Below are positions 34,469 through 55,020 of a DNA stretch of 64,000 nt, one piece after another. The notes under the pieces are model-generated. The model was not told where the DNA came from. It ran no database searches and was given only the letters and a program-made list of their open reading frames with translations. Position 1 is the first letter of the stretch. Every line of letters begins with the position of its first letter. Position numbers and translations under genes: made by a program. The DNA comes from Trichomonas vaginalis G3 (lineage: Eukaryota; Parabasalia; Trichomonadida; Trichomonadidae). The stretch is taken from assembly GCF_026262505.1 (NCBI RefSeq), contig NC_067206.1:15062205-15126204 (forward strand), in the 5' to 3' direction.

Positions 34469-34649
34469 AGTTAGTATCCCTAAGTCGTGTACGGAGGCAC
34501 TGCGTTCCTCCGTATGCAATACTTGTGAATTTGACACTTTACAAAACCGTTAACGTATATTTTACAACACAAACGACAACACCAACTTAACCTTAAATAT
34601 TTATAAAGCCGCCAACCACTTCACCTTACTACTGTAAAAATAAACGTTC

Positions 34650-34975
34650 TCACTTACAAAAGTATTGCAACTCTTCCCATTGCTGTGCTTCACACAATAG
34701 TTCATATTCTTCAGTATCGCTGCTGTCGCTCCAATCGTCAGAGTCAAAGTCACTGTCAAAATAAATGTTAGTAAGTTTTGACAAAGCTAATGAAACACGT
34801 TTACCGTTTGTATCGTATGCTTGTATAAACTTCCATTCTTCATTCCTTCATAAACGCTCAAACTAACTTTACCCTTTCTCCCTCGTATCTGATAGAATGT
34901 ATTTTCACGAGGAACGAAGAACAAATTCTTGAACTCATGACCGTTGTAGTTTGTTATCTCAATAGTTTTCGTCAT
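34650..34975 (-). CDS. Small protein with Asp/Ser-rich tail (frameshifted copy)
   Basis: Copy of 54508-54834. The first 48 residues (MTKTIEITNYNGHEFKNLFF and on) are intact, then a frame change near 34832 moves the rest to another frame; the tail SDFDSDDWSDSSDTEEYE is still readable. See the intact copy for description. Confidence 0.6.
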
Positions 34976-35059
34976 TTACATAAAAATAAATAAAAATAAA
35001 TAAAAAATAAACTTAAAAATTAATGATATCACCACCCTCACACGTTGAAAACATAGCAC

Positions 35060-35116
35060 AAAAATAAATTTAGGTGAAGTGGTGAGATCTCACCTCTTTT
35101 TTCACCTCTTTTTTCA
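35060..35116. repeat. AGATCT palindrome, GTGAG/CTCAC form (gene-flanking)
   Basis: TTTAGGTGAAGTGGTGAGATC then TCACCTC, followed by two TTTTTTCACC half-sites, between the stop at 35128 and the start at 34975. The position directly downstream of a gene is typical for this family; mirrored at 54370-54410. Confidence 0.8.
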
Positions 35117-35127
35117 CCCACTTGAAT

Positions 35128-35373
35128 TCATTGCTTTATAAACTCTCTTCCTTTCTCCAACTCTTCTAACTTCTTCTTAAGTTCAGCAATGTTGTCCTCA
35201 TGAAGTTTAATCTTCCTTAATATACCTTCTCTATCTAATGGTTGCTTTATCTTTCTAAACTGAACTCTACCATCCTTCATAGTATGAATGTAAAAACCTT
35301 CTGGAATAGTTCCTGATTTAATGTATTCTACCAAAAACTTTTGTTTCATTGCTTCAGTGACTTTAGTCGTCAT
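35128..35373 (-). CDS. YxV-G-RK domain protein
   Basis: Intact, 81 residues (MTTKVTEAMKQKFLVEYIKS). The core GFYIHTMKDGRVQFRKIKQP matches the compact domain in the Maverick proteins at 4099 and 25121; the C-terminus is a coiled coil (NIAELKKKLEELEKGRE). The shared domain is one of the few links between the palindromic element and the full Mavericks. The right-arm copy is 54109-54345. Function unknown; probably a small DNA- or protein-binding factor. Confidence 0.65.
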   Translation of the reverse strand: MTTKVTEAMKQKFLVEYIKSGTIPEGFYIHTMKDGRVQFRKIKQPLDREGILRKIKLHEDNIAELKKKLEELEKGREFIKQ

Positions 35374-35399
35374 TTTACTCTAAGGTGAAGCTAGCACAG

Positions 35400-36140
35400 C
35401 GATAATGGATTTCATGACTTTTTAGTATTTCATGCAATCTTAACAGATAGCCTTATAAGTACTTCCAGTGTCCTAGCTGTCCCTCCTTTTTATATAACTC
35501 CATGACATTTATAATCTCGCGAAACTTAACAGGTAGCATAACAGATTAAAATCAGATGAGGTTTTGAACCAAAATTTCTAAGCAACGTTGTCAAGGATTT
35601 TGAGGAACTAGGGACAGAGTGTGGCAAAGTCCAAGATTTAATTTATCTTCATCTGTTTCATCAGCTATCTCATCTAATATGCCAATATTTTATTCATAAC
35701 TCGTGGCAAACTCACTAACTTTCATTATGTTCATCTGCATGCTTCATCTGATAGAAAGTATGACTTTCATTAACTCTGTGAGATAATGAAAACTACTAGG
35801 GACAGAGACCATGGCAAAGTTTATGATTTTCATTATTTCCGGAACTTAATGAAAACTACTAGGGACAGAGACCATGGCAAAGTTCATGATTTAATTTATT
35901 CTCTCACTAACAACAAACACAAACTCCAACACTAACATCAAGTACTAACCTCAGCACAAATGACAAACACTAACAACAAACACAAACTCCAACACTAACG
36001 ACAAGTACTAACCTCAGCACAAATGACAAACGCTAACAACAAACACAAACTCCAACACTAACATCAAGTACTAACCTCAGCACAAATGACAAACACTAAC
36101 AACAAACACAAACTCCAACACTAACGACAAAAATAAATGT
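35400..36140. other. Non-coding region with two tandem repeats
   Basis: Upstream of the start at 35373. Contains two copies of ATGAAAACTACTAGGGACAG plus AGACCATGGCAAAGT (about 35787-35885) and, at 35905-36130, about three 75-bp copies built of AACAACAAACACAAACTCC and ACTAACCTCAGCACAAATG. No gene. It probably holds the promoter of the 35373 gene. Confidence 0.7.
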
Positions 36141-36142
36141 CC

Positions 36143-36862
36143 TCACTTCTTAACAAAGTAATATGTGCTTCTTACACCACCATAGCTCAAACGTTTCTTT
36201 TCAAACATCGATTGAAACTTATTTTGAGCCATTGGCTTTAGTCTCTTTTTCTTCAAATACGCCAAGAAATCTTCTTCACATCTTTTCACTTCATAGCCTT
36301 CTTTAAACTCCTCCTTGTTAAGTTCTATGAAATCCTTTATCTCATTCTTTGTTGCAATGGCTTCTTCACGAACGACATCGTGAACTATTTCATCATTGCA
36401 TTCATGAACGACCTCCTCACTGTTCTCATGAACTATTTCAACACTGTTCTCATGTATGACCTCCTCATTGCATTCATGTATGACCTCCTTACTGTTCTCA
36501 TGAACTATTTCATCACTGTTCTCATGAACGACCTCCTCACTGTTCTCATGAACTATTTCATCACTGTTCTCATGTATGACCTCCTCACTGTTCTCATGAA
36601 CGACCTCCTTACTGTTCTCATGAACTATTTCAACACTGTTCTCATGTATGACCTCCTTACTGTTCTCATGAACTATTTCAACACTGTTCTCATGTATGAC
36701 CTCCTCACTGTCTTTCATAAGCGTTTCAAAGTCTCCTTTACTCATTACTTCAATCTCATGCTGTTCACAGTAGTACTTAAACTCACTGTATATGTCTTTG
36801 TTGTATGTTATATTGCTTCCCATGTACTCCATGAATTTTTCAAGCACTTCCTCATAATTCAC
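36143..36862 (-). CDS. Octapeptide-repeat protein, C-terminal extension of the helicase
   Basis: A 239-codon frame with no ATG at its start (GTG AAT TAT), separated from the helicase frame above it by a single in-frame TAA (36866-36868). In the right arm that codon is GAA and the two read as one protein. Residues about 50-160 are 8-residue repeats of the type EVIHENSD / EIVHENSK, about 14 here; the C-terminal 70 residues are a basic winged-helix-like region (LAYLKKKRLKPMAQNKF). So this is probably the end of a larger helicase polypeptide, cut by a nonsense change in this arm. Confidence 0.65.
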   Translation of the reverse strand: MNYEEVLEKFMEYMGSNITYNKDIYSEFKYYCEQHEIEVMSKGDFETLMKDSEEVIHENSVEIVHENSKEVIHENSVEIVHENSKEVVHENSEEVIHENSDEIVHENSEEVVHENSDEIVHENSKEVIHECNEEVIHENSVEIVHENSEEVVHECNDEIVHDVVREEAIATKNEIKDFIELNKEEFKEGYEVKRCEEDFLAYLKKKRLKPMAQNKFQSMFEKKRLSYGGVRSTYYFVKK

Positions 36863-36865
36863 TGT

Positions 36866-38929
36866 TTATTTCTTTCCATGACCTTCTAATATCATACTTG
36901 CTTCGTAAATATAACTTCTTGCAGAACCGTCTCGCTTTCTACTTCTCTTCACAAATTCTCTCATCTTGCCACCAAATACATTTGAACTACATGCAAAGAA
37001 TTCATTCTCCTTCGCAAATTCTTTATATCTTCTGTAGCACTCTGTACAATTCCATCCGGATACAAACTTTTCATAGAACTCCTCGTAAAACATTTGGTAA
37101 GGTGTTTTGTTCATTTCGATGAGTTCTTGTTTAGCCCTGGTGAATGGTATCTTCCTTACATCAAATTCACTTAAATCTTTCTTCATGAAGTACGTCAGTA
37201 AGTTTGAATAAAACTCTTCATTAAAGCTTTCAATGAGATTTGAGAAATATTCGTAATTTCCTTTGTATCTGCTGCTTACGTCAATGACAACAAATCTTCT
37301 GTCGTCTTTGTCAATCTTTACTGAGTTGAAGTTGTTAGATATCATGATGATATTACAAACATTCTCTATCTTTCTTACTGGCTGACACTTCTGATTTAAG
37401 TCCAACTGAGTCTCTGTTACTATTGACTTTAGTGCGTCGTGGTTCATGACCTTAGACGTATCGCATGAGCTTAGTTCATTGCATACGATGAGCTTCATGT
37501 TCTCAATAGCAGCATTGAATCTACCAACCACATTCTCTATTGCCGTTATATTATTGTTGGCGTACTTGCTAATGAGCTCGCATAGAACATTACTAAGTAC
37601 ATTCTTACCAGTTCCTTGCTTTCCTATTAACAAAAGTACTGTTCCAGTCTTTCCACAAGGATTTTGAACGATGTAGGCGAACCAGTTCAAAACATACTCA
37701 TAAAGCTCTTCATCCTCATTACATATGACATCGTGAACATGTTTCAAATATCCTTCAATAATGCTTTCATCTACTTCATTCAGTACCTCATACTCATATC
37801 CTCTGAAATAGCTGTAAATGTCATCTCTTTCGTCAAAGAATCTCATGCCTGACTTCATAAGATAGTTCTTGTTCTGACCCGCTTCATAAATCATCAGTGC
37901 GTTCACATCCTTCTCTTCAATACGTCCTACGTAAACACTCCTCATGAGCTTATTGAATTCCTTGCTATCTACTGACACAAGTGTTGTTGTGTCTCGTATT
38001 CCATCATAATCTTTCACTAGATATGTCATACATGCTCCGTCAATAACGACAACACATCTTCTTAAGTCATTTATAACACTAGCTATGTCAATACCGTCCT
38101 CACTCATGTACTTATTTCTTCTCAAGTCCTTTAGTGTGAAAGTGTCTCTAAGTTCTATTTCAAGCAATTCATTTACACATCCTTTGCAATACTTCTCTAT
38201 AAAATATTTCTGTCGTTCTTTACTAAGTTTCTTAACAGCTCTGAAGAACCATGTGTTTTGACTCAAACATCCTTCACAACTTCTCTCATTCATTCCTAGT
38301 TCTTTCATGTCATTATCTTCAACCTCTATGGTCTCATTGACTAAGGTCAAAGGGTTCTTAGTCATTGCTGGTCTTATCTGAAACAATGTTTGTGCAACAG
38401 GTTTAACTAGTTCAGCAACGTCCTTCCTTAATATGAATAGCTGTTTCCACTCATCTTTGCTAACAGTTCTTTCATAACCACTGACAGTAATGATTTCATT
38501 TGCTGACCTTAGACACTTATGTTCTATCATTTGTATTGCTTTTGTGTAAGGCTTTCGTGAGCATAGGTTGTATATGTCATTCCTGCAATGTTCATTCATG
38601 CCAATAGTACTAAATCCTTTCTTTGCTGTTGAGTGCATAATATCCATTAGTTCCTGTGTTCGTATTGCTGTCTCATAAAATACAACAAGACCTTTGTCAT
38701 CTATGACGTACTTACCGAAAACATTGCTTATATTCTTTAACCATGAAATAACATCCTCATTCATGCTGTCAAACATGAAGTAAGGTCTTACATACTCTTC
38801 ACTTATAAGATACTCCACAAAATACTTGTTAAGCTCTATGTCCTCGTGAGCGATTTCATTAGGTTTGATATTAGTTCCTTTTGTCATTGCTGTCATGTAC
38901 TTCACTCTCATAGTTCCTTTCAATAGCAT
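36866..38929 (-). CDS. D5-like primase-SF3 helicase of the palindromic element
   Basis: Intact, 687 residues from ATG 38929. Walker A IGKQGTGKN (about 433-441), KLIVCNELSS, then NIIMISNNFNSVKIDKDDRR give a superfamily 3 helicase of the D5 type, used to open and unwind replication origins. The N-terminal 200 residues contain VRPYFMFDSMN, faintly like the catalytic DxD region of archaeo-eukaryotic primases; a Cys cluster (CEGC...CKGC) lies near 220-260. It is much longer than the Maverick helicase at 14575 but shares its core. It is the only replication enzyme of this element. Confidence 0.85.
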   Translation of the reverse strand: MLLKGTMRVKYMTAMTKGTNIKPNEIAHEDIELNKYFVEYLISEEYVRPYFMFDSMNEDVISWLKNISNVFGKYVIDDKGLVVFYETAIRTQELMDIMHSTAKKGFSTIGMNEHCRNDIYNLCSRKPYTKAIQMIEHKCLRSANEIITVSGYERTVSKDEWKQLFILRKDVAELVKPVAQTLFQIRPAMTKNPLTLVNETIEVEDNDMKELGMNERSCEGCLSQNTWFFRAVKKLSKERQKYFIEKYCKGCVNELLEIELRDTFTLKDLRRNKYMSEDGIDIASVINDLRRCVVVIDGACMTYLVKDYDGIRDTTTLVSVDSKEFNKLMRSVYVGRIEEKDVNALMIYEAGQNKNYLMKSGMRFFDERDDIYSYFRGYEYEVLNEVDESIIEGYLKHVHDVICNEDEELYEYVLNWFAYIVQNPCGKTGTVLLLIGKQGTGKNVLSNVLCELISKYANNNITAIENVVGRFNAAIENMKLIVCNELSSCDTSKVMNHDALKSIVTETQLDLNQKCQPVRKIENVCNIIMISNNFNSVKIDKDDRRFVVIDVSSRYKGNYEYFSNLIESFNEEFYSNLLTYFMKKDLSEFDVRKIPFTRAKQELIEMNKTPYQMFYEEFYEKFVSGWNCTECYRRYKEFAKENEFFACSSNVFGGKMREFVKRSRKRDGSARSYIYEASMILEGHGKK

Positions 38930-39011
38930 AAAAATACTTCATTGTTTCATAACTGCTCTAAATTCTGTTCAAAATTCGTACAACATAACTTTTTAACATT
39001 AGTGAAAGAAC

Positions 39012-39715
39012 ATGAGCGAAACAACAACATCTAACATTACAGAAGAAGTCAATGACAATGCCGATGAAAACATTACAGAAGGAGCTAGTGAAAATATTGA
39101 CGAGTTCAGTGGAGGAAGAAAATATTGAGGACGTCAATGAGAACGTTAGTGGGGAACAAACTCAATGGGAAACATTGAGAATCATGAAGATTATGAGATT
39201 TGTACGACATATCCTTTTACTAATTCGTCGAAAGAAAAACAAACATATTAAGTGAATGCTTAAATAATCATGGTTATATTGAGCTTAGTTTAAACAACAA
39301 AATGTACTTAAAGCATAGAATTATTGCAGAACAGTGGATTGAAAATCCAAACAATTTGAAAGAAATAGACCATATAAATCATGATAGAACGGACAACAGA
39401 ATCTCAAACCTTCGTTGGTGTTCTAGATCTGAAAACAATAGAAATAAAAGCAAGTATGGCGATATAGTTTATGAGTTCGTTGATGAAATATCTGACGAAG
39501 CTGTTGAAATAACCGCTTATGGTAAGCATTCGTTTGAGTTCTACTACTATGTTGAGAATGAGGACGCATTCTATTATTATACAGGTCTTAACTATCGAAA
39601 ACTTCATATAAACTTTACAAAAACAGGTGCTGCTTATGTTTGTATGATAGATACAGAAAACAAGAGTGTAATTTTATTCATAAACAAATTCAAACGCTTG
39701 TACGGCTTCATGTAG
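39012..39715 (+). CDS. NUMOD4-HNH homing-type endonuclease (frameshifted)
   Basis: ATG at 39012 (MSETTTSNITEEVND) divergent from the helicase by 82 bases. After an acidic N-terminus a NUMOD4-like segment (WETLRNHEDYEICTTYPF in the other copy) leads to an HNH motif: LKEIDHINHDRTDNRISNLRW then SENNRNK. A frame change near 39130 and another near 39190 separate the halves; 39302-39715 is clean. Homing nucleases of this type cut at specific sites to promote spread of their gene. The right-arm copy (49904-50608) is broken differently. Confidence 0.75.
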
Positions 39716-39778
39716 GACAAACATTATTTTTCAACACTAACGCCAACACGTAGGACAAACATTCATGACTAACATTAC

Positions 39779-40255
39779 TGTATAACATAAATAATTTGTC
39801 ATGATTTAATCGTAAATGTTTTGTCAAGACTTCTTCATCGTAATGAGCGTAAATGATCCAAAAATATATTTTAGGTGAAGAGGTGAGAACTCACCTCTTT
39901 TCTCACCTCTTTTCTCACCCTCAGCCGCTAAGCGGCGAGACCCAAAGGGTCTTGAATTTTCATGACTCTTCATCGTAAATGTTTTGTCAAGACTTCTTCA
40001 TCGTAATGAGCGTATATGTTTTTGTCAAGACTTCTTCATCGTATATGTTTTTGTCATGATTTAATCGTATATGTTTTGTCATGATTTCATCGTATATGTT
40101 TTGTCATGATTTAATCGTATATGTTTTGTCATGACTTCTTCGTAATGAACGTACATTTTTGTCAAGACTTCTTCGTATATGTTTTGTCATGATTTAATCG
40201 TACATGTTTTGTCAAGACTTCTTCATCGTAATGAGCGTAAATGTTTTGTGAAGAA
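39779..40255. repeat. 28-bp minisatellite with an AGATCT-family palindrome
   Basis: Units of the form CGTAWATGTTTTGTCA + WGAYTTMWTC. Contains GGTGAGAACTCACC at 39883-39896, an AA-centred variant of the palindrome, and CAGCCGCTAAGCGGCGAGA, a small GC hairpin. Mirrored at 49390-49830. Confidence 0.85.
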
Positions 40256-40260
40256 TATAA

Positions 40261-40284
40261 CAACCGCCTGAATTCAGACGGTTG
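40261..40284. repeat. 24-bp palindrome CAACCGYCTGAATTCAGRCGGTTG
   Basis: Near-perfect inverted repeat (CAACCGCCTGAATTC / AGACGGTTG) just before the KilA-N remnant. Copies at about 49336-49359 and, noisy, at 62206-62229, each time next to the same remnant. Could be a terminator hairpin or a binding site. Confidence 0.75.
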
Positions 40285-40286
40285 CT

Positions 40287-40585
40287 TTTTATACAAAATT
40301 CACACAGGAAAATTCTTGAGTTTTGGTTGAAAGAATACGGTCAAGCCAAAAGTGGCTCGACCTCAAAAACAAACATTTTATGAGCTTACTAAGGAACTTA
40401 TGAATGAATTCAAAGGTATTTGCATACATCCTGACCTCGTTCATTTTGTTGCTGAATGGTGCTCTGTAAAGTATGCATTTTATGTCAAAGATATTATGGA
40501 CTCCATAGATAAGAAAGTTCATGAGAAGTTAGATGAAGAAGAACTCGAAGATACAGTAGAGAATGCAAAAACAAGCATTTTATGA
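40287..40585 (+). pseudogene. KilA-N domain remnant
   Basis: Encodes the C-terminal two thirds of a KilA-N domain: ILEFWLKEYGQ, FYELTKEL, CIHPDLVHFVAEWCSVKYAFYV and a short acidic tail. There is no proper start; the sequence begins at the 24-bp palindrome. One A too many in a short run near 40366 breaks the frame relative to the right arm. The end is repeated in part at 40565-40668. Probably a captured DNA-binding module, now decayed. Confidence 0.6.
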
Positions 40586-40670
40586 AGCTTACTAAGGCAT
40601 TTATGAATGAATTCAAAGGTATTTGCATACATCCTGACCTCGTTCATTTTGTTGCTGAATTCAGCAAAAA
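40565..40670 (+). pseudogene. Partial duplicate of the KilA-N remnant
   Basis: Repeats 40365-40465 (AAACAAGCATTTTATGA, then the IHPDLVHFVAE codons) and stops at GTTGCTGAATTCAGC, an AATTC-centred small palindrome. The same duplication exists in the right arm (48955-49050). Confidence 0.7.
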
Positions 40671-41301
40671 TAATGTTTACGTTAATGTTTTCACTGTCAC
40701 TACGTCACCATGTCACCAGGTTAATTAACTTCTCTTAAAATTACTTGACAACATGACATTTAGACAACAGTCCAGGAAATATATTTTATCGTATATGTTT
40801 GTCATGATTTTATCGTTTATGTTTTGTCATGACTTACCGTAATAACGTAAATGTTTTGTCATGATTTAATCGTAAATTTTGTCATGATTTCATCGTAAAT
40901 GTTTTGTAAGACTTCTTCGTATATTTTGTCAAACATGAACGTAAATGTTTTGTCATGATTTAATCGAATGAGTGTAAATGATTTCATATAATTGCTTACC
41001 TCGGAAAACCGAGAGAAGAGATTCCATATGAAAATCGCAAGAATTTGGCTCCTGGTTTGAAATATTATTATGTTCATAGACTTCATCGTATATGTTTTGT
41101 CAAACATGAGCGTATATGTTTTGTCATGATTTCATCGTATATGCTTTGTCATGATGATTTCATCGAAACTAAAACGTATATGTTTTGTCATGATTTCATC
41201 GTACATGTTTTGTCATGATTTCATCGTATATTTGTTGTCAAGATTTCATCGTAATGAGTGTAAATGAACCAAAAATAATGTTTACGTTCATGTTGACAAC
41301 C

Positions 41302-41665
41302 AGCAGGGGAAGGCAGTTATGAATTATTTTTGAAGAACTGAGGTGTCACTACGTCACCATGTGTCACTCGGTTAATTAACTTCTCTGAAAAAATGAGACA
41401 ACATGACATTTTGACAACACAGCAGGGGAAGGCAGTTATGAATTATTTTTTGAAGAACTGAAGGTGTCACTACGTCACCATGTGTCACTCGGTTAATTAA
41501 CTTCTCTGAAAAAATGGAGACAACATGACATTTTGACAACACAGCAGGGGAAGGCAGTTATGAATTTTTTGAGAACTGAAGGTGTCACTACGTCACCATG
41601 TGTCACTCGGTTAATTAACTTCTCTGAAAAAATGAGACAACATGACATTTTGGCAACAACACAGG
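41302..41665. repeat. Three ~120-bp repeats with iteron-like GTGAC triplets
   Basis: Units start near 41302, 41421 and 41543 (AGCAGGGGAAGGCAG). Each contains, on the minus strand, GTGACACATGGTGACGTAG then TGACACC, three GTGAC words 8-10 bases apart, next to the palindrome GTTAATTAAC. This arrangement recalls iterons bound by replication initiators. Equivalent clusters lie at 43430-43770, 44790-45150, 45830-46200 and 47950-48310, flanking the axis. Confidence 0.8.
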
Positions 41666-41796
41666 AAATAAATGTTTACGTATATGTTTTGTCAAGACCT
41701 CATCGTATATGTTTTGTCATGATTTCTTCGTATATGTTTTGTCATGACTTCTTCATCGTAATGAGTGTAAATGATCCAAAAATAATGTTTAGGTGA

Positions 41797-41838
41797 AGAG
41801 GTGAGATCTCACCTGTTTTCTCACCTAATTTTTCACCT
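41797..41838. repeat. Covarying AGATCT palindrome, GTGAG/CTCAC form
   Basis: AGGTGAAGAGGTGAGATC followed by TCACCTGTTTTCTCACC: upstream GTGA half-site, GGTGAGATCTCACC palindrome, then downstream CTCACC half-sites. It has the same layout as the GTTAG/CTAAC form (21866-21912) with T changed to G in each left half-site and A to C in each right half-site. Other copies: 41933, about 43896 and 44036, about 47662, 47801 and 54389. Confidence 0.85.
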
Positions 41839-44800
41839 CAGCCGCTAAGCGCGAGACCCAAAGGTCTTGAATTTTCATGATTTCTTCATCGTAATGAGTG
41901 TAAATGATCCAAAAATAATGTTTAGGTGAAGAGGTGAGATCTCACCTCTTTTCTCACCTCTTTTCTCACCTCATTGAATTTCATGATTTCTTCATCGTAA
42001 TGAGCGTAAAATGTTTTGTCATGATTTCATCGTACATGTTTTGTCAAAACTTCATCGTATATGTTTTGTCAAACATGAGCGTAAATTTTTGTCATGATTT
42101 CTTCATCGTACAGTTTTGTCATGATTTCTTCGTATATGTTTTGTCATGATTTCTTCGTATATGTTTTGTCAAACATGAGCGTATATGTTTTGTCAAGACT
42201 TCTTCATCGTAATGAGCGTAAATGATTGTCATGATTTCTTCATCGTAATGAGCGTATATGTTTGTCAAACATGAGCGTAAATGTTTTGTCAAAACTTTCT
42301 TCGTATATGTTTTGTCATGATTTCTTCATCGTAATGAGCGTATATGTTTTGTCAAACATGAGCGATATTTTTGTCAAGACTTCTTCATCGTAATGAGCGT
42401 AAATGATTTGTTCATGATTTCTTCATCGTAATGAGCGTATATGTTTTGTCAAACATGAGCGTAAATGTTTTGTCAAAACTTCTTCGTATATTTTGTGTCA
42501 TATTTCTTCATCGTAATGAGCGTATATGTTTTGTCAAACATGAGCGTATATGTTTTGTCAAGACTTCTTTCATCGTAATGAGCGTAAATGATTTGTCATG
42601 ATTTCTTCATCGTAATGAGCGTATATGTTTTGTCAAACATGAGCGTAAATGTTTTGTCAAAACTTCTTCGTATATGTTTTTGTCATGATTCTTCATCTCG
42701 TAATGAGCGTATATTTTTGTCAAACATGAGCGTATATGTTTTGTCAAGACTTCTTCATCGTAATGAGCGTAAATGATTTGTCATGATTTCTTCATCGTAA
42801 TGAGCGTATATGTTTTGTCAAACATGAGCGTAAATGTTTTGTCAAAACTTCTTCGTATATGTTTTGTCATGATTTCTTCATCGTAATGAGCGTATATGTT
42901 TTGTCAAACATGAGCGTATATGTTTGTCAAGACTTCTTCATCGTAATGAGCGTAAATGATTTGTCATGATTCTTCATCGTAATGAGCGTATATGTTTTGT
43001 CAAACATGAGCGTAAAATGTTTTGTCAAAATCTTCGTATATGTTTTGTCATGATTTCTTCATCGTAATCGAGCGTATATGTTTTGTCAAACATGAGCGTA
43101 TATGTTTTTTGTCAAGACTTCTTCATCGTAATGAGCGTAAATGATTTGTCATGATTTCTTCATCGTAATGAGCGTATATGTTTTGTCAAACACGTAAATG
43201 TTTTGTCAAAACTTCTTCGTAAATGTTTTGTCATGATTTAATCGTACATGTTTTGTCGAAACTTCATCGTATATGTTTTGTCATGATTTCTTCATCGTAA
43301 TGAGCGTAAATGTTTTTGTCAAACATGAACGTAAATGTTTTGTCAAACTTCTTCATCGTAATGAGCGTAAATGACCCAAAAATAATGTTTAGGTAGATGG
43401 TTTTTAGGTTATTCAATAATGAATTATTTGAAGAACTGAAGGTTCACTACGTCACCATGTGTCACTCGGTTAATTAACTTCTCTGAAAAAATGAGACAAA
43501 CATGACATTTTGACAACACAGCAGGGGAAGGCAGTTATGAATTATTTTGAAGAACTGAAGGTGTCACTACGTCACCATGTGTCACCAGGTAATTTAACTT
43601 CTCTGAAAAATGAGACAACATGACATTTAGACAACAACACAGGAGGAAGGCAGTTATGAATTATTTTTGAAAACTGAAGGTGTCACTACGTCACCATGTG
43701 TCACTCGTTAATTAACTTCTCTGAAAAAATGAGACAACATGACATTTTGGCAACAACACAGGAAATAAATGTTTACGTATATGTTTTGTCAAGACCTCAT
43801 CGTATATGTTTTGTCATGATTTCTTCGTATATGTTTTTCATGACTTCTTCATCGTAATGAGTGTAAATGATCCAAAAATAATGTTTAGGTGAAGAGGTGA
43901 GATCTCACCTGTTTTCTCACCTAATTTTTCACCCTCAGCCGCTAAGCGGCGAGACCCAAAGGGTCTTGAATTTTCATGATTTCTTCATCGTAATGAGTGT
44001 AAATGATCCAAAAATAATGTTTAGGTGAAGAGGTGAGATCTCACCTCTTTTCTCACCTCTTTTCTCACCTCATTGAATTTTCATGATTTCTTCATCGTAA
44101 TGAGCGTAAATTTTGTTCATGATTCATACATGTTTTGTCAAAACTTCATCGTATATGTTTTGTCAAACATGAGCGTAAATGTTTTTCATGATTTCTTCAT
44201 CGTACATGTTTTGTCATGATTTCTTCGTATATGTTTGTCATGATTCTTCGTATATGTTTTCAAAACATGAGCGTATATGTTTTGTCAAGACTTCTTCATC
44301 GTAATGAGCGTAAATGATTTGTCATGATTCATTTTCATCGTAATGAGCGTATATGTTTTGTCACAACATGAGCGTAAATGTTTTGTCAAAACTTCTTCGT
44401 ATATGTTTTGTCATGATTTCTTCATCGTAATGAGCGTATATGTTTTGTCAAACATGAGCGTATATGTTTTGTCAAGACTTCTTCATCGTAATGAGCGTAA
44501 ATGATTTGTCATGATTTCTTCATCGTAATGAGCGTATATGTTTTGTCAAACATGAGCGTAAATGTTTTGTCAAAACTTCTTCGTAAATGTTTTGTCATGA
44601 TTTAATCGTACATGTTTTGTCGAAACTTCATCGTATATGTTTTGTCATGATTTCTTCATCGTAATGAGCGTAAATGTTTTGTCAAACATGAACGTAAATG
44701 TTTTGTCAAGACTTCTTCATCGTAATGAGCGTAAATGACCCAAAAATAATGTTTAGGGTAGATGGTTTTTAGGTTATTCAATAATGAATTATTTTTGAAG

Positions 44801-45251: not shown

Positions 45252-45330
45252 TTTATGTTAGAATGTTAGATCTAACACCTTTTCTAACATGTTTTCTAAC
45301 ATGGAGGATTTCATTAGATATAAATATTCT
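45252..45330. repeat. Innermost left palindrome, GTTAG form
   Basis: GTTAGATCTAAC (45265-45276) with its downstream half-sites, then ATGGAGGATTTCATTAGATA up to the hinge; mirrored exactly by 45645-45722. These are the last symmetric bases before the asymmetric centre. Confidence 0.85.
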
Positions 45331-45644
45331 TCCTCCATTTCATTCTATACACAATTTACATCATAGACGATTTAAAGAATATAATACTTTACTGTTTCAT
45401 CTGATATAAACATTCTTCCTCCATTTCATTCTATACACAATTTACATCATAGACGATTTAATAGATATAATACTTTACTGTTTCATCTGATATAAACATT
45501 CTTCCTTCATTTCATTCTATACACAATTTACATCATAGACGATTTAATAGATATAATACTTTACTGTTTCATCTGATATAAACATTCTTCCCTAAACATT
45601 ATTTTAGTTAAAGTCCATCAAATATTTTTAGGATACTTTCACCA
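45331..45644. other. Hinge at the axis: 86-bp tandem repeats
   Basis: Three copies of an 86-bp unit (starts near 45327, 45413, 45499; CATTTCATTCTATACACAAT) plus a partial fourth, in one orientation only. This is the only non-palindromic part of the element and so gives the centre a direction. No gene. Confidence 0.8.
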
Positions 45645-45722
45645 AATAATATTTATATCTAATGAAATCCTCCATGTTAGAAAACATGTTAGAAAAGGTG
45701 TTAGATCTAACATTCTAACATA

Positions 45723-48700
45723 AACATTATTTTTGGATCATTTACGCTCATTCCGATGAAGAAGTCTTGACAAAACATTTACGCTCATTACGATGAAGAA
45801 ATCATGACAAAACATTTACGATGAAGTCATAACTGCCTTCCTCCTGTGTTGTTGTCTAAATGTCATGTTGTCTCATTTTTTCAGAGAAGTTAATTAACCG
45901 AGTGACACATGGTGACGTAGTGACACCTTCAGTTCTTCAAAAATAATTCATAACTGCCTTCCTCCTGTGTTGTTGTCTAAATGTCATGTTGTCTCATTTT
46001 TTCAGAGAAGTTAAATTACCTGGTGACACATGGTGACGTAGTGACACCTTCAGTTCTTCAAAAATAATTCATAACTGCCTTCCCCTGCTGTGTTGTCAAA
46101 ATGTCATGTTGTCTCATTTTTTCAGAGAAGTTAATTAACCGAGTGACACATGGTGACGTAGTGACACCTTCAGTTCTTCAAAAATAATTCATTATTGAAT
46201 AACCTAAAAACCATCTACCCTAAACATTATTTTTGGGTCATTTACGCTCATTACGATGAAGAAGTCTTGACAAAACATTTACGTTCATGTTTGACAAAAC
46301 ATTTACGCTCATTACGATGAAGAAATCATGACAAAACATATACGATGAAGTTTCGACAAAACATGTACGATTAAATCATGACAAAACATTTACGAAGAAG
46401 TTTTGACAAAACATTTACGTTCATGTTTGACAAAACATATACGCTCATTACGATGAAGAAATCATGACAAATCATTTACGCTCATTACGATGAAGAAGTC
46501 TTGACAAAACATATACGCTCATGTTTGACAAAACATATACGCTCATTACGATGAAGAAATCATGACAAAACATATACGAAGAAGTTTTGACAAAACATTT
46601 ACGCTCATGTTTGACAAAACATATACGCTCATTACGATGAAGAAATCATGACAAATCATTTACGCTCATTACGATGAAGAAGTCTTGACAAAACATATAC
46701 GCTCATGTTTGACAAAACATATACGCTCATTACGATGAAGAAATCATGACAAAACATATACGAAGAAGTTTTGACAAAACATTTACGCTCATGTTTGACA
46801 AAACATATACGCTCATTACGATGAAGAAATCATGACAAATCATTTACGCTCATTACGATGAAGAAGTCTTGACAAAACATATACGCTCATGTTTGACAAA
46901 ACATATACGCTCATTACGATGAAGAAATCATGACAAAACATATACGAAGAAGTTTTGACAAAACATTTACGCTCATGTTTGACAAAACATATACGCTCAT
47001 TACGATGAAGAAATCATGACAAATCATTTACGCTCATTACGATGAAGAAGTCTTGACAAAACATATACGCTCATGTTTGACAAAACATATACGCTCATTA
47101 CGATGAAGAAATCATGACAAAACATATACGAAGAAGTTTTGACAAAACATTTACGCTCATGTTTGACAAAACATATACGCTCATTACGATGAAGAAATCA
47201 TGACAAATCATTTACGCTCATTACGATGAAGAAGTCTTGACAAAACATATACGCTCATGTTTGACAAAACATATACGCTCATTACGATGAAGAAATCATG
47301 ACAAAACATATACGAAGAAGTTTTGACAAAACATTTACGCTCATGTTTGACAAAACATATACGCTCATTACGATGAAGAAATCATGACAAATCATTTACG
47401 CTCATTACGATGAAGAAGTCTTGACAAAACATATACGCTCATGTTTGACAAAACATATACGAAGAAATCATGACAAAACATATACGAAGAAATCATGACA
47501 AAACATGTACGATGAAGAAATCATGACAAAACATTTACGCTCATGTTTGACAAAACATATACGATGAAGTTTTGACAAAACATGTACGATGAAATCATGA
47601 CAAAACATTTACGCTCATTACGATGAAGAAATCATGAAAATTCAATGAGGTGAGAAAAGAGGTGAGATCTCACCTCTTCACCTAAACATTATTTTTGGAT
47701 CATTTACACTCATTACGATGAAGAAATCATGAAAATTCAAGACCCTTTGGGTCTCGCCGCTTAGCGGCTGAGGGTGAAAAATTAGGTGAGAAAACAGGTG
47801 AGATCTCACCTCTTCACCTAAACATTATTTTTGGATCATTTACACTCATTACGATGAAGAAGTCATGACAAAACATATACGAAGAAATCATGACAAAACA
47901 TATACGATGAGGTCTTGACAAAACATATACGTAAACATTTATTTCCTGTGTTGTTGCCAAAATGTCATGTTGTCTCATTTTTTCAGAGAAGTTAATTAAC
48001 CGAGTGACACATGGTGACGTAGTGACACCTTCAGTTCTTCAAAAATAATTCATAACTGCCTTCCCCTGCTGTGTTGTCAAAATGTCATGTTGTCTCATTT
48101 TTTCAGAGAAGTTAATTAACCGAGTGACACATGGTGACGTAGTGACACCTTCAGTTCTTCAAAAATAATTCATAACTGCCTTCCCCTGCTGTGTTGTCAA
48201 AATGTCATGTTGTCTCATTTTTTCAGAGAAGTTAATTAACCGAGTGACACATGGTGACGTAGTGACACCTTCAGTTCTTCAAAAATAATTCATAACTGCC
48301 TTCCCCTGCTGTGTTGTCAAACATGAACGTAAACATTATTTTTGGTTCATTTACACTCATTACGATGAAATCTTGACAAAACATATACGATGAAATCATG
48401 ACAAAACATGTACGATGAAATCATGACAAAACATATACGTTTAGTTTCGATGAAATCATCATGACAAAGCATATACGATGAAATCATGACAAAACATATA
48501 CGCTCATGTTTGACAAAACATATACGATGAAGTCTATGAACATAATAATATTTCAAACCAGGAGCCAAATTCTTGCGATTTTCATATGGAATCTCTTCTC
48601 TCGGTTTTCCGAGGTAAGCAATTATATGAAATCATTTACACTCATTACGATTAAATCATGACAAAACATTTACGTTCATGTTTGACAAAACATATACGAA

Positions 48701-48960
48701 GAAGTCTTGACAAAACATTTACGATGAAATCATGACAAAACATTTACGATTAAATCATGACAAAACATTTACGTTCATTACGATGAAGTCATGACAAAAC
48801 ATAAACGATAAAATCATGACAAAACATATACGATAAAATATATTTCCTGGACTGTTGTCTAAATGTCATGTTGTCAGTAATTTTAAGAGAAGTTAATTAA
48901 CCTGGTGACATGGTGACGTAGTGACAGTGAAAACATTAACGTAAACATTATTTTTGCTGA
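45723..48960. repeat. Non-coding repeat region of the right arm
   Basis: Mirror of 40671-45250: 120-bp GTGAC repeats at 45830-46200 and 47950-48310, a long 28-bp/190-bp array at 46240-47630, AGATCT palindromes near 47662 and 47801. The array units here are more regular than in the left arm, which shows many single-base losses. No gene. Confidence 0.85.
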
Positions 48961-49034
48961 ATTCAGCAACAAAATGAACGAGGTCAGGATGTATGCAAAT
49001 ACCTTTGAATTCATTCATAAATGCCTTAGTAAGC

Positions 49035-49337
49035 TCATAAAATGCTTGTTTTTGCATTCTCTACTGTATCTTCGAGTTCTTCTTCATCTAACTTCTCATG
49101 AACTTTCTTATCTATGGAGTCCATAATATCTTTGACATAAAATGCATACTTTACAGAGCACCATTCAGCAACAAAATGAACGAGGTCAGGATGTATGCAA
49201 ATACCTTTGAATTCATTCATAAGTTCCTTAGTAAGCTCATAAAATGTTTGTTTTGAGGTCGAGCCACTTTTGGCTTGACCGTATTCTTTCAACCAAAACT
49301 CAAGAATTTTCCTGTGTGAATTTTGTATAAAAAGCAA
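49035..49337 (-). pseudogene. KilA-N domain remnant (right arm)
   Basis: Same remnant as 40287-40585, but here the frame is open throughout (HRKILEFWLKEYGQ to DTVENAKTSIL, 100 codons) because the A run is one shorter. The apparent ATG lies inside the 24-bp palindrome side, so a functional start is doubtful. Confidence 0.6.
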
Positions 49338-49389
49338 CCGTCTGAATTCAGGCGGTTGTTATATTCTTCACAAAACATTTACGCTCATT

Positions 49390-49860
49390 ACGATGAAGAA
49401 GTCTTGACAAAACATGTACGATTAAATCATGACAAAACATATACGAAGAAGTCTTGACAAAACATGTACGTTCATTACGAAGAAGTCATGACAAAACATA
49501 TACGATTAAATCATGACAAAACATATACGATGAAATCATGACAAAACATATACGATTAAATCATGACAAAACATATACGATGAAGAAGTCTTGACAAAAC
49601 ATATACGCTCATTACGATGAAGAAGTCTTGACAAAACATTTACGATGAAGAAGTCATGAAAATTCAAGACCCTTTGGGTCTCGCCGCTTAGCGGCTGAGG
49701 GTGAGAAAAGAGGTGAGAAAAGAGGTGAGTTCTCACCTCTTCACCTAAAATATATTTTTGGATCATTTACGCTCATTACGATGAAGAAGTCTTGACAAAA
49801 CATTTACGATTAAATCATGACAAATTATTTATGTTATACAGTAATGTTAGTCATGAATGT
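49390..49860. repeat. 28-bp minisatellite (right arm)
   Basis: Mirror of 39779-40255 including the AA-centred palindrome variant (about 49725-49738) and the GCCGCTTAGCGGC hairpin. Confidence 0.85.
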
Positions 49861-49903
49861 TTGTCCTACGTGTTGGCGTTAGTGTTGAAAAATAATGTTT
49901 GTC

Positions 49904-50608
49904 CTACATGAAGCCGTACAAGCGTTTGAATTTGTTTATGAATAAAATTACACTCTTGTTTTCTGTATCTATCATACAAACATAAGCAGCACCTGTTTTT
50001 GTAAAGTTTATATGAAGTTTTCGATAGTTAAGACCTGTATAATAATAGAATGCGTCCTCATTCTCAACATAGTAGTAGAACTCAAACGAATGCTTACCAT
50101 AATCTGTTATTTCAACAGCTTCGTCAGATATTTCATCAACGAACTCATAAACTATATCGCCATACTTGCTTTTATTTCTATTGTTTTCAGATTTAGAACA
50201 CCAACGAAGGTTTGAGATTCTGTTGTCCGTTCTATCATGATTTATATGGTCTATTTCTTTCAAATTGTTTGGATTTTCAATCCACTGTTCTGCAATAATT
50301 TTATGCTTTAAGTACATTTGTTGTTTAAACTAAGCTCAATATAACCATGATTATTTAAGCATTCACTCTTAATATGTTTGTTTTTCTTTCGACGAATAGT
50401 AAAAGGATATGTCGTACAAATCTCATAATCTTCATGATTTCTCAATGTTTCCCATTGAGTTTGTTCCCCACTAACGTTCTCATTGACGTCCTCAATATCT
50501 TTCTTCCTCACTGAACTCGTCAATATTTTCACTAGCTCCTTCTGTAATGTTTTCATCGGCATTGTCATTGACTTCTTCTGTAATGTTAGATGTTGTTGTT
50601 TCGCTCAT
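49904..50608 (-). CDS. NUMOD4-HNH homing-type endonuclease (right arm, frameshifted)
   Basis: Copy of 39012-39715. The NUMOD4 part reads through here (QWETLRNHEDYEICTTYP) but the frame breaks near 50500 and at the join to the HNH part (near 50313, where ATG-containing AAAATGTAC reads differently). HNH core LKEIDHINHDRTDNRIS is intact. Comparing both arms gives one continuous protein, so each arm holds different damage. Confidence 0.7.
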
Positions 50609-50688
50609 GTTCTTTCACTAATGTTAAAAGTTATGTTGTACGAATTTTGAACAGAATTTAGAGCAGTTATGAAACAATGAAGTATTTT

Positions 50689-53338
50689 ATGCTATTGAAA
50701 GGAACTATGAGAGTGAAGTACATGACAGCAATGACAAAAGGAACTAATATCAAACCTAATGAAATCGCTCACGAGGACATAGAGCTTAACAAGTATTTTG
50801 TGGAGTATCTTATAAGTGAAGAGTATGTAAGACCTTACTTCATGTTTGACAGCATGAATGAGATGTTATTTCATGGTTAAAGAATATAAGCAATGTTTTC
50901 GGTAAGTACGTCATAGATGACAAAGGTCTTGTTGTATTTTATGAGACAGCAATACGAACACAGGAACTAATGGATATTATGCACTCAACAGCAAAGAAAG
51001 GATTTAGTACTATTGGCATGAATGAACATTGCAGGAATGACATATACAACCTATGCTCACGAAAGCCTTACACAAAAGCAATACAAATGATAGAACATAA
51101 GTGTCTAAGGTCAGCAAATGAAATCATTACTGTCAGTGGTTATGAAAGAACTGTTAGCAAAGATGAGTGGAAACAGCTATTCATATTAAGGAAGGACGTT
51201 GCTGAGTTAAACCTGTTGCATTGTTTCAGATAAGACCAGCAATGACTAAGAACCCTTTGACCTTAGTCAATGAGACCATAGAGGTTGAAGATAATGACAT
51301 GAAAGAACTAGGAATGAATGAGAGAAGTTGTGAAGGATGTTTGAGTCAAAACACATGGTTCTTCAGAGCTGTTAAGAAACTTAGTAAAGAACGACAGAAA
51401 TATTTTATAGAGAAGTATTGCAAAGGATGTGTAAATGAATTGCTTGAAATAGAACTTAGAGACACTTTCACACTAAAGGACTTGAGAAGAAATAAGTACA
51501 TGAGTGAGACGGTATTGACATAGCTAGTGTTATAAATGACTTAAGAAGATGTGTTGTCGTTATTGACGGAGCACGTATGACATATCTAGTGAAAGATTAT
51601 GATGGAATACGAGACACAACAACACTTGTGTCAGTAGATAGCAAGCAATAAGCTCATGAGAGTGTTTACGTAGGACGTATTGAAGAGAAGGATGTGAACG
51701 CACTGATGATTTATGAAGCGGGTCAGAACAAGAACTATCTTATGAAGTCAGGCATGAGATTCTTTGACGAAAGAGATGACATTTACAGCTATTTCAGAGG
51801 ATATGAGTATGAGGTACTGAATGAAGTAGATGAAAGCATTATTGAAGGATATTTGAAACATGTTCACGATGTCATATGTAATGAGGATGAAGAGCTTTAT
51901 GAGTATGTTTTGAACTGGTTCGCCTACATCGTTCAAAATCCTTGTGGAAAGACTGGAACAGTACTTTTGTTAATAGGAAAGCAAGGAACTGGTAAGAATG
52001 TACTTAGTAATGTTCTATGCGAGCTCATTAGCAAGTACGCCAACAATAATATAACGGCAATAGAGAATGTGGTTGGTAGATTCAATGCTGCTATTGAGAA
52101 CATGAAGCTCATCGTATGCAATGAACTAAGCTCATGCGATACGTCTAAGGTCATGAACCACGACGCACTAAAGTCAATAGTAACAGAGACTCAGTTGGAC
52201 TTAAATCAGAAGTGTCAGCCAGTAAGAAAGATAGAGAATGTTTGTAATATCATCATGATATCTAACAACTTCAACTCAGTAAAGATTGACAAAGACGACA
52301 GAAGATTTGTTGTCATTGACGTAAGCAGCAGATACAAAGGAAATTACGAATATTTCTCAAATCTCATTGAAAGCTTTAATGAAGAGTTTTATTCAAACTT
52401 ACTGACGTACTTCATGAAGAAAGATTTAAGTGAATTTGATGTAAGGAAGATACCATTCACCAGGGCTAAACAAGAACTCATCGAAATGAACAAAAACACC
52501 TTACCAAATGTTTTACGAGGAGTTCTATGAAAAGTTTGTATCCGGATGGAATTGTACAGAGTGCTACAGAAGATATAAAGAATTTGCGAAGGAGAATGAA
52601 TTCTTTGCATGTAGTTCAAATGTATTTGGTGGCAAGATGAGAGAATTTGTGAAGAGAAGTAGAAAGCGAGACGGTTCTGCAAGAAGTTATATTTACGAAG
52701 CAAGTATGATATTAGAAGGTCATGGAAAGAAAGAAACAGTGAATTATGAGGAAGTGCTTGAAAAATTCATGGAGTACATGGGAAGCAATATAACATACAA
52801 CAAAGACATATACAGTGAGTTTAAGTACTACTGTGAACAGCATGAGATTGAAGTAATGAGTAAAGGAGACTTTGAAACGCTTATGAAAGACAGTGAGGAG
52901 GTCATACATGAGAACAGTGATGAAATAGTTCATGAGAACAGTGAGGAGGTCGTTCATGAGAACAGTGATGAAATAGTTCATGAGAACAGTAAGGAGGTCA
53001 TACATGAATGCAATGAGGATGTCATACATGAGAACAGTGATGAAATAGTTCATGAGAACAGTGAGGAGGTCGTTCATGAATGCAATGATGAAATAGTTCA
53101 CGATGTCGTTCGTGAAGAAGCCATTGCAACAAAGAATGAGATAAAGGATTTCATAGAACTTAACAAGGAGGAGTTTAAAGAAGGCTATGAAGTGAAAAGA
53201 TGTGAAGAAGATTTCTTGGCGTATTTGAAGAAAAAGAGACTAAAGCCAATGGCTCAAAATAAGTTTCAATCGATGTTTGAAAAGAAACGTTTGAGCTATG
53301 GTGGTGTAAGAAGCACATATTACTTTGTTAAGAAGTGA
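50689..53338 (+). pseudogene. Primase-helicase fused to the octapeptide-repeat domain (right arm, frameshifted)
   Basis: Copy of 38929-36143 with at least four frame changes (near 50865, 51215, 51515, 51650 and 52490). Walker A IGKQGTGKN is in the clean stretch 51694-52530. The helicase end continues without a stop (GHGKKETVNYEEV) into the octapeptide-repeat region, which has about nine repeats, then the same basic end YYFVKK. It shows that helicase and repeat domain were probably one protein of about 920 residues. Confidence 0.75.
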
Positions 53339-53340
53339 GG

Positions 53341-53590
53341 ACATTTATTTTTGTCGTTAGTGTTGGAGTTTGTGTTTGTTGTTAGTGTTTGTCATTTGTG
53401 CTGAGGTTAGTACTTGATGTTAGTGTTGGAGTTTGTGTTTGTTGTTAGCGTTTGTCATTTGTGCTGAGGTTAGTACTTGTCGTTAGTGTTGGAGTTTGTG
53501 TTTGTTGTTAGTGTTTGTCATTTGTGCTGAGGTTAGTACTTGATGTTAGTGTTGGAGTTTGTGTTTGTTGTTAGTGAGAGAATAAATTAA
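53341..53590. repeat. ~75-bp tandem repeats downstream of the helicase
   Basis: About three copies of GTTAGTGTTGGAGTTTGTG plus TTTGTTGTTAGYGTTTGTC and GTGCTGAGGTTAGTACTTG. Mirror of 35905-36130. Confidence 0.9.
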
Positions 53591-54108
53591 ATCATGAACT
53601 TTGCCATGGTCTCTGTCCCTAGTAGTTTTCATTAAGTTCCGGAAATAATGAAAATCATAAACTTTGCCATGGTCTCTGTCCCTAGTAGTTTTCATTATCT
53701 CACAGAGTTAATGAAAGTCATACTTTCTATCAGATGAAGCATGCAGATGAACATAATGAAAGTTAGTGAGTTTGCCACGAGTTATGAATAAAATATTGGC
53801 ATATTAGATGAGATAGCTGATGAAACAGATGAAGATAAATTAAATCTTGGACTTTGCCACACTCTGTCCCTAGTTCCTCAAAATCCTTGACAACGTTGCT
53901 TAGAAATTTTGGTTCAAAACCTCATCTGATTTTAATCTGTTATGCTACCTGTTAAGTTTCGCGAGATTATAAATGTCATGGAGTTATATAAAAAGGAGGG
54001 ACAGCTAGGGACACTGGAAGTACTTATAAGGCTATCTGTTAAGATTGCATGAAATACTAAAAAGTCATGAAATCCATTATCGCTGTGCTAGCTTCACCTT
54101 AGAGTAAA
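53591..54108. other. Non-coding region before the YxV-G-RK gene (right arm)
   Basis: Two copies of the TTTGCCATGGTCTCTGTCCC segment (near 53600 and 53660) and a related third (TTTGCCACACTCTGTCCC near 53855). TATAAAAAGGAGGGACAGC at about 53986-54004 looks like a TATA-type box, although trichomonad genes usually rely on an initiator. No gene. Confidence 0.55.
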
Positions 54109-54345
54109 ATGACGACTAAAGTCACTGAAGCAATGAAACAAAAGTTTTTGGTAGAATACATTAAATCAGGAATTATTCCAGAAGGTTTTTACATTCATAC
54201 TATGAAGGATGGTAGAGTTCAGTTTAGAAAGATAAAGCAACCATTAGATAAAGAAGGAATTTTGAGAAAGATTAAACTTCATGAGGACAACATTGCTGAA
54301 CTTAAGAAGAAGTTAGAAGAGTTGGAGAAAGGAAGAGAGTTATAA
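54109..54345 (+). CDS. YxV-G-RK domain protein (right arm)
   Basis: 78 residues, same as 35128-35373 except a few substitutions and an earlier stop (ends GREL), due to a two-base difference in the GAGAGTTTATA region. The domain GFYIHTMKDGRVQFRKIKQP and the coiled-coil end are preserved. Confidence 0.65.
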   Translation: MTTKVTEAMKQKFLVEYIKSGIIPEGFYIHTMKDGRVQFRKIKQPLDKEGILRKIKLHEDNIAELKKKLEELEKGREL

Positions 54346-54369
54346 AGCAATGAATTCAAGTGGGTGAAA

Positions 54370-54410
54370 AAAGAGGTGAAAAAAGAGGTGAGATCTCACC
54401 ACTTCACCTA
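54370..54410. repeat. AGATCT palindrome, GTGAG/CTCAC form (right arm)
   Basis: Two GGTGAAAAAAGA half-sites precede GGTGAGATCTCACC (about 54389-54402), mirror of 35060-35116, between the two small genes. Confidence 0.8.
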
Positions 54411-54507
54411 AATTTATTTTTGTGCTATGTTTTCATACGTGTGATGGTTGTGATATCATTATTTTTAAGTTTATTTTTTATTTTATTTTTATTTTATTTT
54501 TATGTAA

Positions 54508-54834
54508 ATGACGAAAACTATTGAGATAACAAACTACAACGGTCATGAGTTCAAGAATTTGTTCTTCGTTCCTCGTGAAAATACATTCTATCAGATACGA
54601 GGGAGAAAGGGTAAAGTTAGTTTGAGCGTTTATGAAGGAATGAAGAATGGAAAGTTTATACAAGCATACGATACAAACGGTAAACGTGTTTCATTAGCTT
54701 TGTCAAAACTTACTAACATTTATTTTGACAGTGACTTTGACTCTGACGATTGGAGCGACAGCAGCGATACTGAAGAATATGAACTATTGTGTGAAGCACA
54801 GCAATGGGAAGAGTTGCAATACTTTTGTAAGTGA
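54508..54834 (+). CDS. Small protein with Asp/Ser-rich tail (intact)
   Basis: 108 residues, ATG 54508 behind TTTTATTTTTATGTAA. The N-terminal 60 residues are strand-rich and basic (FYQIRGRKGKVSLSVYEGM); residues about 75-95 are strongly acidic (SDFDSDDWSDSSDTEEYE). It is the outermost gene of the arm, next to the tip, and its left copy (34650-34975) is frameshifted. A basic-then-acidic layout suggests nucleic-acid binding with a DNA-mimic or nuclear tail; not recognised. Confidence 0.6.
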   Translation: MTKTIEITNYNGHEFKNLFFVPRENTFYQIRGRKGKVSLSVYEGMKNGKFIQAYDTNGKRVSLALSKLTNIYFDSDFDSDDWSDSSDTEEYELLCEAQQWEELQYFCK

Positions 54835-55015
54835 GAACGTTTATTTTTACAGTAGTAAGGTGAAGTGGTTGGCGGCTTTATAAATATTTAAGGTTAAGTT
54901 GGTGTTGTCGTTTGTGTTGTAAAATATACGTTAACGGTTTTGTAAAGTGTCAAATTCACAAGTATTGCATACGAAGGAACGCAGTGCCTCCGTACACGAG
55001 ACTTGTATACTAACT
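54835..55015. repeat. Tip of the right arm with terminal hairpin
   Basis: Contains TTAACGGTTTTGTAAAGTG, the hairpin TACGAAGG...CCTCCGTA and the terminal ATACTAACT. The left tip has the matching bases at 34469-34620, with a perfect hairpin stem (TACGGAGG...CCTCCGTA). Confidence 0.8.
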
Positions 55016-55020
55016 TTATT
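55016..55020. repeat. Target-site duplication of the nested element, right copy
   Basis: TTATT, identical to 34464-34468. Confidence 0.85.

Follow-up and report, generated by a model that had tools for sequence, protein, structure and literature searches.

The PolB-type Maverick (Polinton) of Trichomonas vaginalis, reportedly described by Pritham et al. in 2007, is close kin to the element studied here, which occupies positions 34469-55015 of a 64,000-nucleotide stretch of the T. vaginalis G3 genome. This whole stretch, C4:15062205-15126204, is called the window; other loci are given by contig and position in Mb. Like the PolB-type Maverick, the element has AGTTAGTA tips, target duplications of 5-6 bp, end genes of 108 and 81 amino acids (aa), KilA-N and repeat stretches. 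Unlike it, the element lacks PolB, integrase and the other long Maverick genes, and is palindromic with a hinge of its own. A helicase-type Maverick of the same genome (C4:21738274-21758463) carries integrase and KilA-N, with an SF3 primase-helicase at the place where the PolB block of the Maverick at C4:2.87M sits; no PolB match was found in it, and it has many relatives, with 4349 first-look candidates, of which 106 were scored. The window element shares with it the SF3 primase-helicase (37-42% identity), KilA-N, ~120-bp arrays and the tips, whereas the helicase-type Maverick has an integrase and is not palindromic, and a related copy of it retains the primase motifs. Foldback or long-inverted-repeat transposons have large inverted repeats, a 9-bp duplication and family-specific ends. 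There, as here, most of the element consists of inverted repeats, but the present duplication is 5-6 bp and the ends are those of Mavericks. Palindromic adenovirus recombinants and parvovirus dimer forms are self-complementary linear DNAs generated by end-primed or hairpin replication; these are replication products, whereas the present palindromes form an inherited family dispersed in a genome. According to PMC6431247, Teratorn has large inverted repeats, as foldback transposons do, but in the window element the repeat takes up nearly all of the 20 kb and the genes are carried twice. Polinton-like viruses and virophages with a primase-SF3 helicase have the same type of replication module (parts of PMC3671162 and PMC10120064), but encode capsid genes and are not palindromic. 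Passages of Warring et al. 2021 (PMC7845603) describe a protein of Maverick Tv1.6 with a DNA primase domain; the helicase-type Maverick is probably the class of this 'Mav1.6 DNA primase domain protein', an equation made in our analysis. A literature search, with most subscription journals and bioRxiv outside it, found no description of palindromic or non-autonomous Polintons or Mavericks.

Our data suggest, with a probability that we put at roughly 0.72, that the element is one of many palindromic Maverick satellites, non-autonomous elements of one family that share Maverick ends, are integrated in trans and owe their mirror structure to fold-back copying. The stretch 34469-55015 is a true insertion: it has AGTTAGTAT tips, the flanking TTATT is duplicated (34464-34468 and 55016-55020), and matching empty sites exist elsewhere in the genome. 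The left boundary reads TTATT/AGTTAGTATCCC and the right one ...GTATACTAACT/TTATT, so that the mirrored, inward-reading tips and the duplication claimed in a preliminary description of the locus are indeed present. A 240-bp query, made of the left flank including one TTATT fused to the right flank, was searched against the genome (180.85 Mb, 86 contigs). Of 61 first-look candidates, 40 were scored; every one matched over the full length, 34 of them without any difference. The insertion target is a MULE, whose transposase fragment lies outside the insertion at 34000-34452 (minus strand), as identified by an open reading frame (ORF) scan, the empty site and flank comparison. Within the element, the alignment of 34469-43932 with the reversed 55015-45676 has 9536 columns, of which 52 are mismatches and 268 contain gaps. 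The inner stretches 44365-45331 and 45645-46611 are complementary at 99% and are separated by 313 nucleotides. The mirror from tip to hinge thus holds as the preliminary description had it, but the arms are unequal, at 10863 bp (left) and 9371 bp (right); the main source of this inequality is about 1.36 kb of extra repeat DNA near the hinge in the left arm.

Rather than a one-off dimer, the palindrome is a trait shared by a family whose hinge is conserved. A first marker, a 39-bp helicase stretch with up to 3 mismatches allowed (control, 0 matches), has 89 forward and 96 reverse copies in the genome, and a second marker has 83+86. The 100 matches of the first marker listed, all exact, yield 40 convergent pairs (80 matches) spaced by no more than 40 kb, at a median of 14.0 kb; one other neighbouring pair (++) occurs among these matches. 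A map merging both markers (the first 100 matches listed of each) with two sets of top-40 hits contains at least 146 arms and at least 58 convergent pairs. From C1 to C4:26.36M, where all exact matches of the first marker are listed, 90 of the 108 arms lie in 45 convergent pairs; pairing was greedy, and on C1 one minus-plus neighbour stands between two successive pairs. As a control, Maverick integrase markers occur at 877 places (450+427). Among the 100 of these listed, on C1 up to 23.1 Mb, neighbours within 25 kb are 4 ++, 3 -+, 2 -- and 1 +-. Since these show no bias to convergence, it is not a general Maverick trait. Seventeen palindromes were read in both arms, namely the window element, C3:26.79M and 15 drawn from the remaining 38 convergent pairs found with the first marker. 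Both AGTTAGTA tips are found in 14 of them, so that paired-tip copies, whose existence the preliminary description implied, are present elsewhere, and 13 of these 14 have an identical 5-6 bp flanking duplication, as against 0 of 182 mismatched left-right controls. In three copies (C1:0.25M, C3:6.19M and C1:7.42M) the tip is unrecognisable on one or both sides, and C3:7.29M has both tips without a target duplication. The mirror of C3:7.29M extends about 180 bp beyond its tips, as in a nested or rearranged copy. In the arms of C1:24.38M, C1:0.25M and C4:2.11M, the tips are tandemly repeated with a unit of roughly 260-350 bp, as if tips duplicate or are added.

The hinge (45332-45644) is asymmetric, being composed of 86-bp units and a unique 59-bp tail; it is conserved between copies and has no match in the five Mavericks read. 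Its left shoulder (45224-45328, plus strand) is 100% inverted in the right shoulder (45649-45753, minus strand). Among the hinge stretches of eight copies, six have 86-bp units and the 59-bp tail between inverted shoulders; at C1:5.66M the stretch ended inside the hinge, with one shoulder and the tail visible, and at C3:18.07M the hinge was not contained in the 2 kb fetched. In the genome, a marker for the shoulder occurs 85 times forward and 84 times in reverse, which puts the family size at about 85 palindromes. The 100 shoulder markers listed include 88 that pair into 44 complete hinges, leaving 12 single. In 39 of these 44 hinges, the spacing equals 126+86n within 5 bp, with n=1 in 16, n=2 in 8, n=3 in 7, n=4 in 7 and n=7 in 1. 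From C1 to C4:26.37M, 38 complete hinges are listed; 25 of them are flanked within 25 kb by an exact helicase marker on both sides, three on one side and ten on neither, and one of these ten retains mirrored repeat arms. A hinge that is both conserved and quantised suggests that the centre formed once and has been inherited with loop changes, without the palindrome being remade. Loop rearrangements are also seen: in three copies (L025, L028 and L034) the orientation of the tail is opposite to that of the 86-bp units, and the hinge of L043 has units in both orientations.

The ends of the element are those of an autonomous Maverick family of the same genome. A search with the tip gave at least 13 further paired-tip loci among the top hits. 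The six that were fetched, all with 5-6 bp duplications, are five ordinary Mavericks sharing only the ends and a second palindrome at C3:26.79M, which is 15.9 kb long with the helicase frame open in both arms (841/842 aa). The AG...CT terminal inverted repeats and 5-6 bp duplications that the preliminary description likened to those of Mavericks are thus borne out, and the tips themselves are common to full Mavericks. The outer 0.6-0.9 kb of the window element are Maverick ends. The left tip (34469-35100, plus strand) is a homologue of the terminal inverted repeat (~0.63 kb) that full Mavericks carry, at 95-97% to both ends in 5/5 Mavericks, and the mirror alignment and Maverick comparison place the right tip (54384-55015, minus strand) in the same repeat. 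In all five Mavericks, the shared stretch stops at about 35100-35155 at one end but continues at the other to about 35375; the left-arm stretch 35101-35375 (plus strand) is homologous beyond ~35155 to one Maverick end only and contains the 81-aa gene. Because this gene is present at one end only in 5/5 Mavericks but in both arms of the window element and of C3:26.79M, both arms derive from the same Maverick end.

The fifteen Maverick stretches read contain 119 ORFs of at least 100 aa, and 16 of these have a match in the window element. The 108-aa tip gene accounts for ten of the 16 and KilA-N for three; another is the SF3 helicase found in the helicase-type Maverick, and the last two are chance frames over the tip. 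By tblastn, PolB and integrase have no match in the window element or C3:26.79M, in agreement with the preliminary description, and no exact integrase marker lies inside the 7 C1 palindrome spans covered by the integrase-marker matches listed. Shared tips and the lack of an integrase in the element make integration by the Maverick integrase the simplest reading, and the 877 integrase-marker places, intact or not, are possible helpers. No Pfam capsid match was found among eight element ORFs scanned; a capsid, ATPase or protease was neither seen in the element nor recognised among ten Maverick-stretch ORFs scanned. Capsid absence is weakly testable, because no capsid gene has so far been found in T. 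vaginalis Mavericks either, according to the introduction of Bellas et al. 2023 (PMC10120064). The PolB Maverick C4:2872593-2895027 seems to be inserted in a helicase gene, pieces of which, 42-54% identical to that of the window, lie in both flanks, and a Maverick protein (L012:6177-7968) has Phage tail repeat-like (PTR) stretches (1.8e-15).

In our reading, each arm consists of one Maverick end (the tip with its 108- and 81-aa genes), the SF3 helicase, HNH, a KilA-N remnant and repeat arrays, and two such arms in mirror order are joined by the conserved hinge. The mirror may have arisen once, through head-to-head joining of one end-half at the hinge. Maverick integrase would act in trans on the shared tips, and replication proteins other than the helicase would be supplied by Mavericks. 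The displaced single strand of the palindrome could fold almost completely into a ~10-kb hairpin; copying from the tip round the hinge loop would then give two equal arms, while the hinge would stay unpaired and its 86-bp units might slip. Later exchange of tips may explain four palindromes with unlike ends. Fold-back copying would account jointly for the inherited hinge and for arms that change in concert. Mobilisation in trans and a head-to-head origin were already inferences of the preliminary description, which did not foresee the helicase gene in both arms, the family-wide palindrome with its conserved hinge or the descent of the arms from one Maverick end. More tentatively, the palindromes may represent a stable transposon class whose hereditary unit is one arm: the element would pass through a hairpin in most cycles, as a self-correcting palindrome with a hinge loop of variable 86-bp unit number as its turning point, its primase-helicase reduced to a helicase serving this cycle and a larger resident element supplying polymerase and integrase.

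The left-arm helicase gene (36866-38929, minus strand) is open over 687 aa and is the sole ORF above 280 aa in the element. Its product matches the profiles of DUF5906 (5.9e-19), VapE-like and Parvo_NS1, which we take to denote an SF3-type helicase, and the profile of the family also matches 6k9c/6lrb and 6k9e, PDB chains that bear the name Primase. The protein collection holds 32 relatives, 25 of them at 35-49% identity and mostly from contigs <6 kb, and in IMG/VR the helicase alignment picked up 4 remote loci, 26-29% identical. Between copies, 33 distinct substitutions comprise 16 nonsynonymous, 17 synonymous and, among them, one that creates a stop; against a neutral expectation of 2.56:1 (binomial p=0.004), this pattern indicates that the helicase is maintained by purifying selection. 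It is possible, though we consider it doubtful, that the element is nearly autonomous in replication, with its own helicase, the 25-bp arrays as origin and a host polymerase, and borrows only the integrase. In favour of this, the selected helicase is present in both arms with the arrays adjoining, and the helicase-type Maverick also has a primase-helicase instead of PolB. The N-terminal primase half, however, lacks the conserved motifs. In an alignment of 17 sequences, two of which are the window protein and P0001, 14 of the other 15 keep a D-x-D motif (YFDFDS or similar) and the fifteenth is gapped there. SMH comes next in most; presumably these are motifs of archaeo-eukaryotic primases. The window helicase and P0001 have YFMFDS in place of D-x-D and lack the second stretch, whereas a helicase-type Maverick protein at C5:5.09M retains IDVD and GGLH, read by eye. 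No polymerase gene was found in the two palindromes searched for PolB, which likewise speaks against near autonomy.

We compared 34 arms of 17 copies, with a 60% length cut per segment. In the outer 0.85 kb, the median difference is 0.39% within and 5.99% between copies, and the partner is nearest for 16/16 arms (8 copies). In the next 0.75 kb, where 33 of 34 arms passed the cut and 32 have a partner, the values are 0.07% and 1.49%, with the partner nearest in 28/32. A 40-tip tree joins the two ends of the same element in 5/5 Mavericks and in 10 of 14 two-tip palindromes. Palindrome and Maverick tips are intermixed, with 4 label changes, at least 2 of them forced by well-supported branches, where shuffled labels average 9. 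These comparisons show that the arms of one copy mostly change in concert.

Several observations weigh against satellites that are kept symmetrical by fold-back copying. Only 19 of the 34 tips passed the length cut, 16 of them with a partner, and in the next 0.75 kb 4/32 arms are nearer to an arm of another copy. At the helicase C-terminus (34 arms), the difference is 0.14% within and 0.14% between copies, with the partner nearest in 19/34; since no within-copy closeness is seen there, the concert rests on the outer ~1.6 kb. The ends fall apart in the tree in 4/14 palindromes (the window, C3:26.79M, C2:2.46M and C4:2.11M), and the first kb of the window element differs by 2.3% between arms, as against 0.31% (14/4450) in the coding part (35376-39967). 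These unlike tips and the 2.3% imply that ends are not always equal or were later exchanged with Mavericks; in the window, it looks as if one tip had been exchanged. In addition, 18/108 arms are unpaired, some of which may still have a partner with marker mismatches, and choosing copies by exact helicase markers favours young ones. Finally, later gene conversion could likewise equalise the arms.

Such conversion after insertion, as in long chromosomal palindromes, seems to us unlikely to be the source of the mirror in the same satellite. In its favour, the arms are long and close together, two copies have 1 mismatch in ~2.9 kb, and the unlike tips in 4/14 copies show that equality is not automatic. 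In the 10/14 remaining copies, however, both tips are of one copy-specific type despite the insertion duplications, which argues that the change probably took place in both arms before insertion, and Mavericks, with short repeats ~20 kb apart, also have paired like tips (5/5). The arm divergence of the window is compatible with mutation since insertion. The MULE left flank (1600 bp) scores 2886 bits against itself and 2867 bits against each of its eight best relatives, a 19-bit deficit that we read as about 4 differences. None of these can predate the insertion of the MULE itself, which makes the palindrome insertion younger still, and post-insertion mutation on this scale could explain arm divergence up to ~0.5%. 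The many near-identical copies of this MULE family (window 32869-34468 and relatives) suggest a recent burst, which makes it a usable clock for later insertions.

That each palindrome forms afresh, from half elements that fuse end to end or insert as a pair, is very improbable. Mavericks apparently fused end to end are mentioned in parts of Warring et al. 2021 (PMC7845603), and may include some of these palindromes; the unpaired arms would also fit. Inward of the HNH gene of the one unpaired arm examined, out of 18, for a single-arm ancestor, unrelated genes lie at 2.5-8.5 kb (C1:3056000-3062000; one ORF of 428 aa), with no hinge and no tip, an observation that also weighs against the satellite reading. 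Against fresh fusion, which we reject, a single target duplication encloses both tips in 13/14 copies, and the same hinge with its quantised units stands between the arms. Fold-back chimeras are a known long-read error, yet an assembly artefact is scarcely credible and is rejected, given 13 copies whose flanks differ but carry a shared duplication of 5-6 bp, variable quantised hinge lengths, arm-specific differences and the empty site; a chance mirror is excluded because of arm length and identity, the other copies and the empty site.

The six gene units that the preliminary description counted twice are mirrored, but not equally intact: the helicase is open in the left arm only, the 108-aa gene is full length in the right arm only and KilA-N is fragmentary on both sides. 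The 108-aa tip gene, 98-100% identical in Maverick tips, lies at 54508-54834 (plus strand) and is shortened to 62 aa at 34787-34975 (minus strand). The 81-aa gene is at 35128-35373 (minus strand), with a copy of 78 aa at 54109-54345 (plus strand). An acidic 24-bp-repeat tail (36143-36832, minus strand), which in C3:26.79M is fused in-frame to the helicase, follows the left helicase; on the right, the helicase frame is broken into several pieces (50677-52530, plus strand), and its end and the acidic tail form a frame of 276 aa (52508-53338, plus strand). HNH_3 endonuclease genes lie at 39302-39715 (plus strand) and, in mirror position, 49904-50317 (minus strand), and KilA-N C-terminal remnants at 40400-40585 (plus strand) and 49035-49220 (minus strand). 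Non-coding tandem arrays, roughly 4-5 kb of each arm, occupy 40011-45303 (plus strand; 25-, 37-, ~120- and ~184-bp units, with related arrays in Mavericks) and 45673-49607 (minus strand).

The Mavericks of this genome are thus split into a PolB type, a helicase type and palindromic satellites, with ends in common, and this three-way split makes parasitism among giant transposons testable. Dispersed, gene-bearing palindromes are a natural record of how linear end-replicating elements keep long inverted repeats alike, a question common to adenoviruses and other protein-primed replicons.

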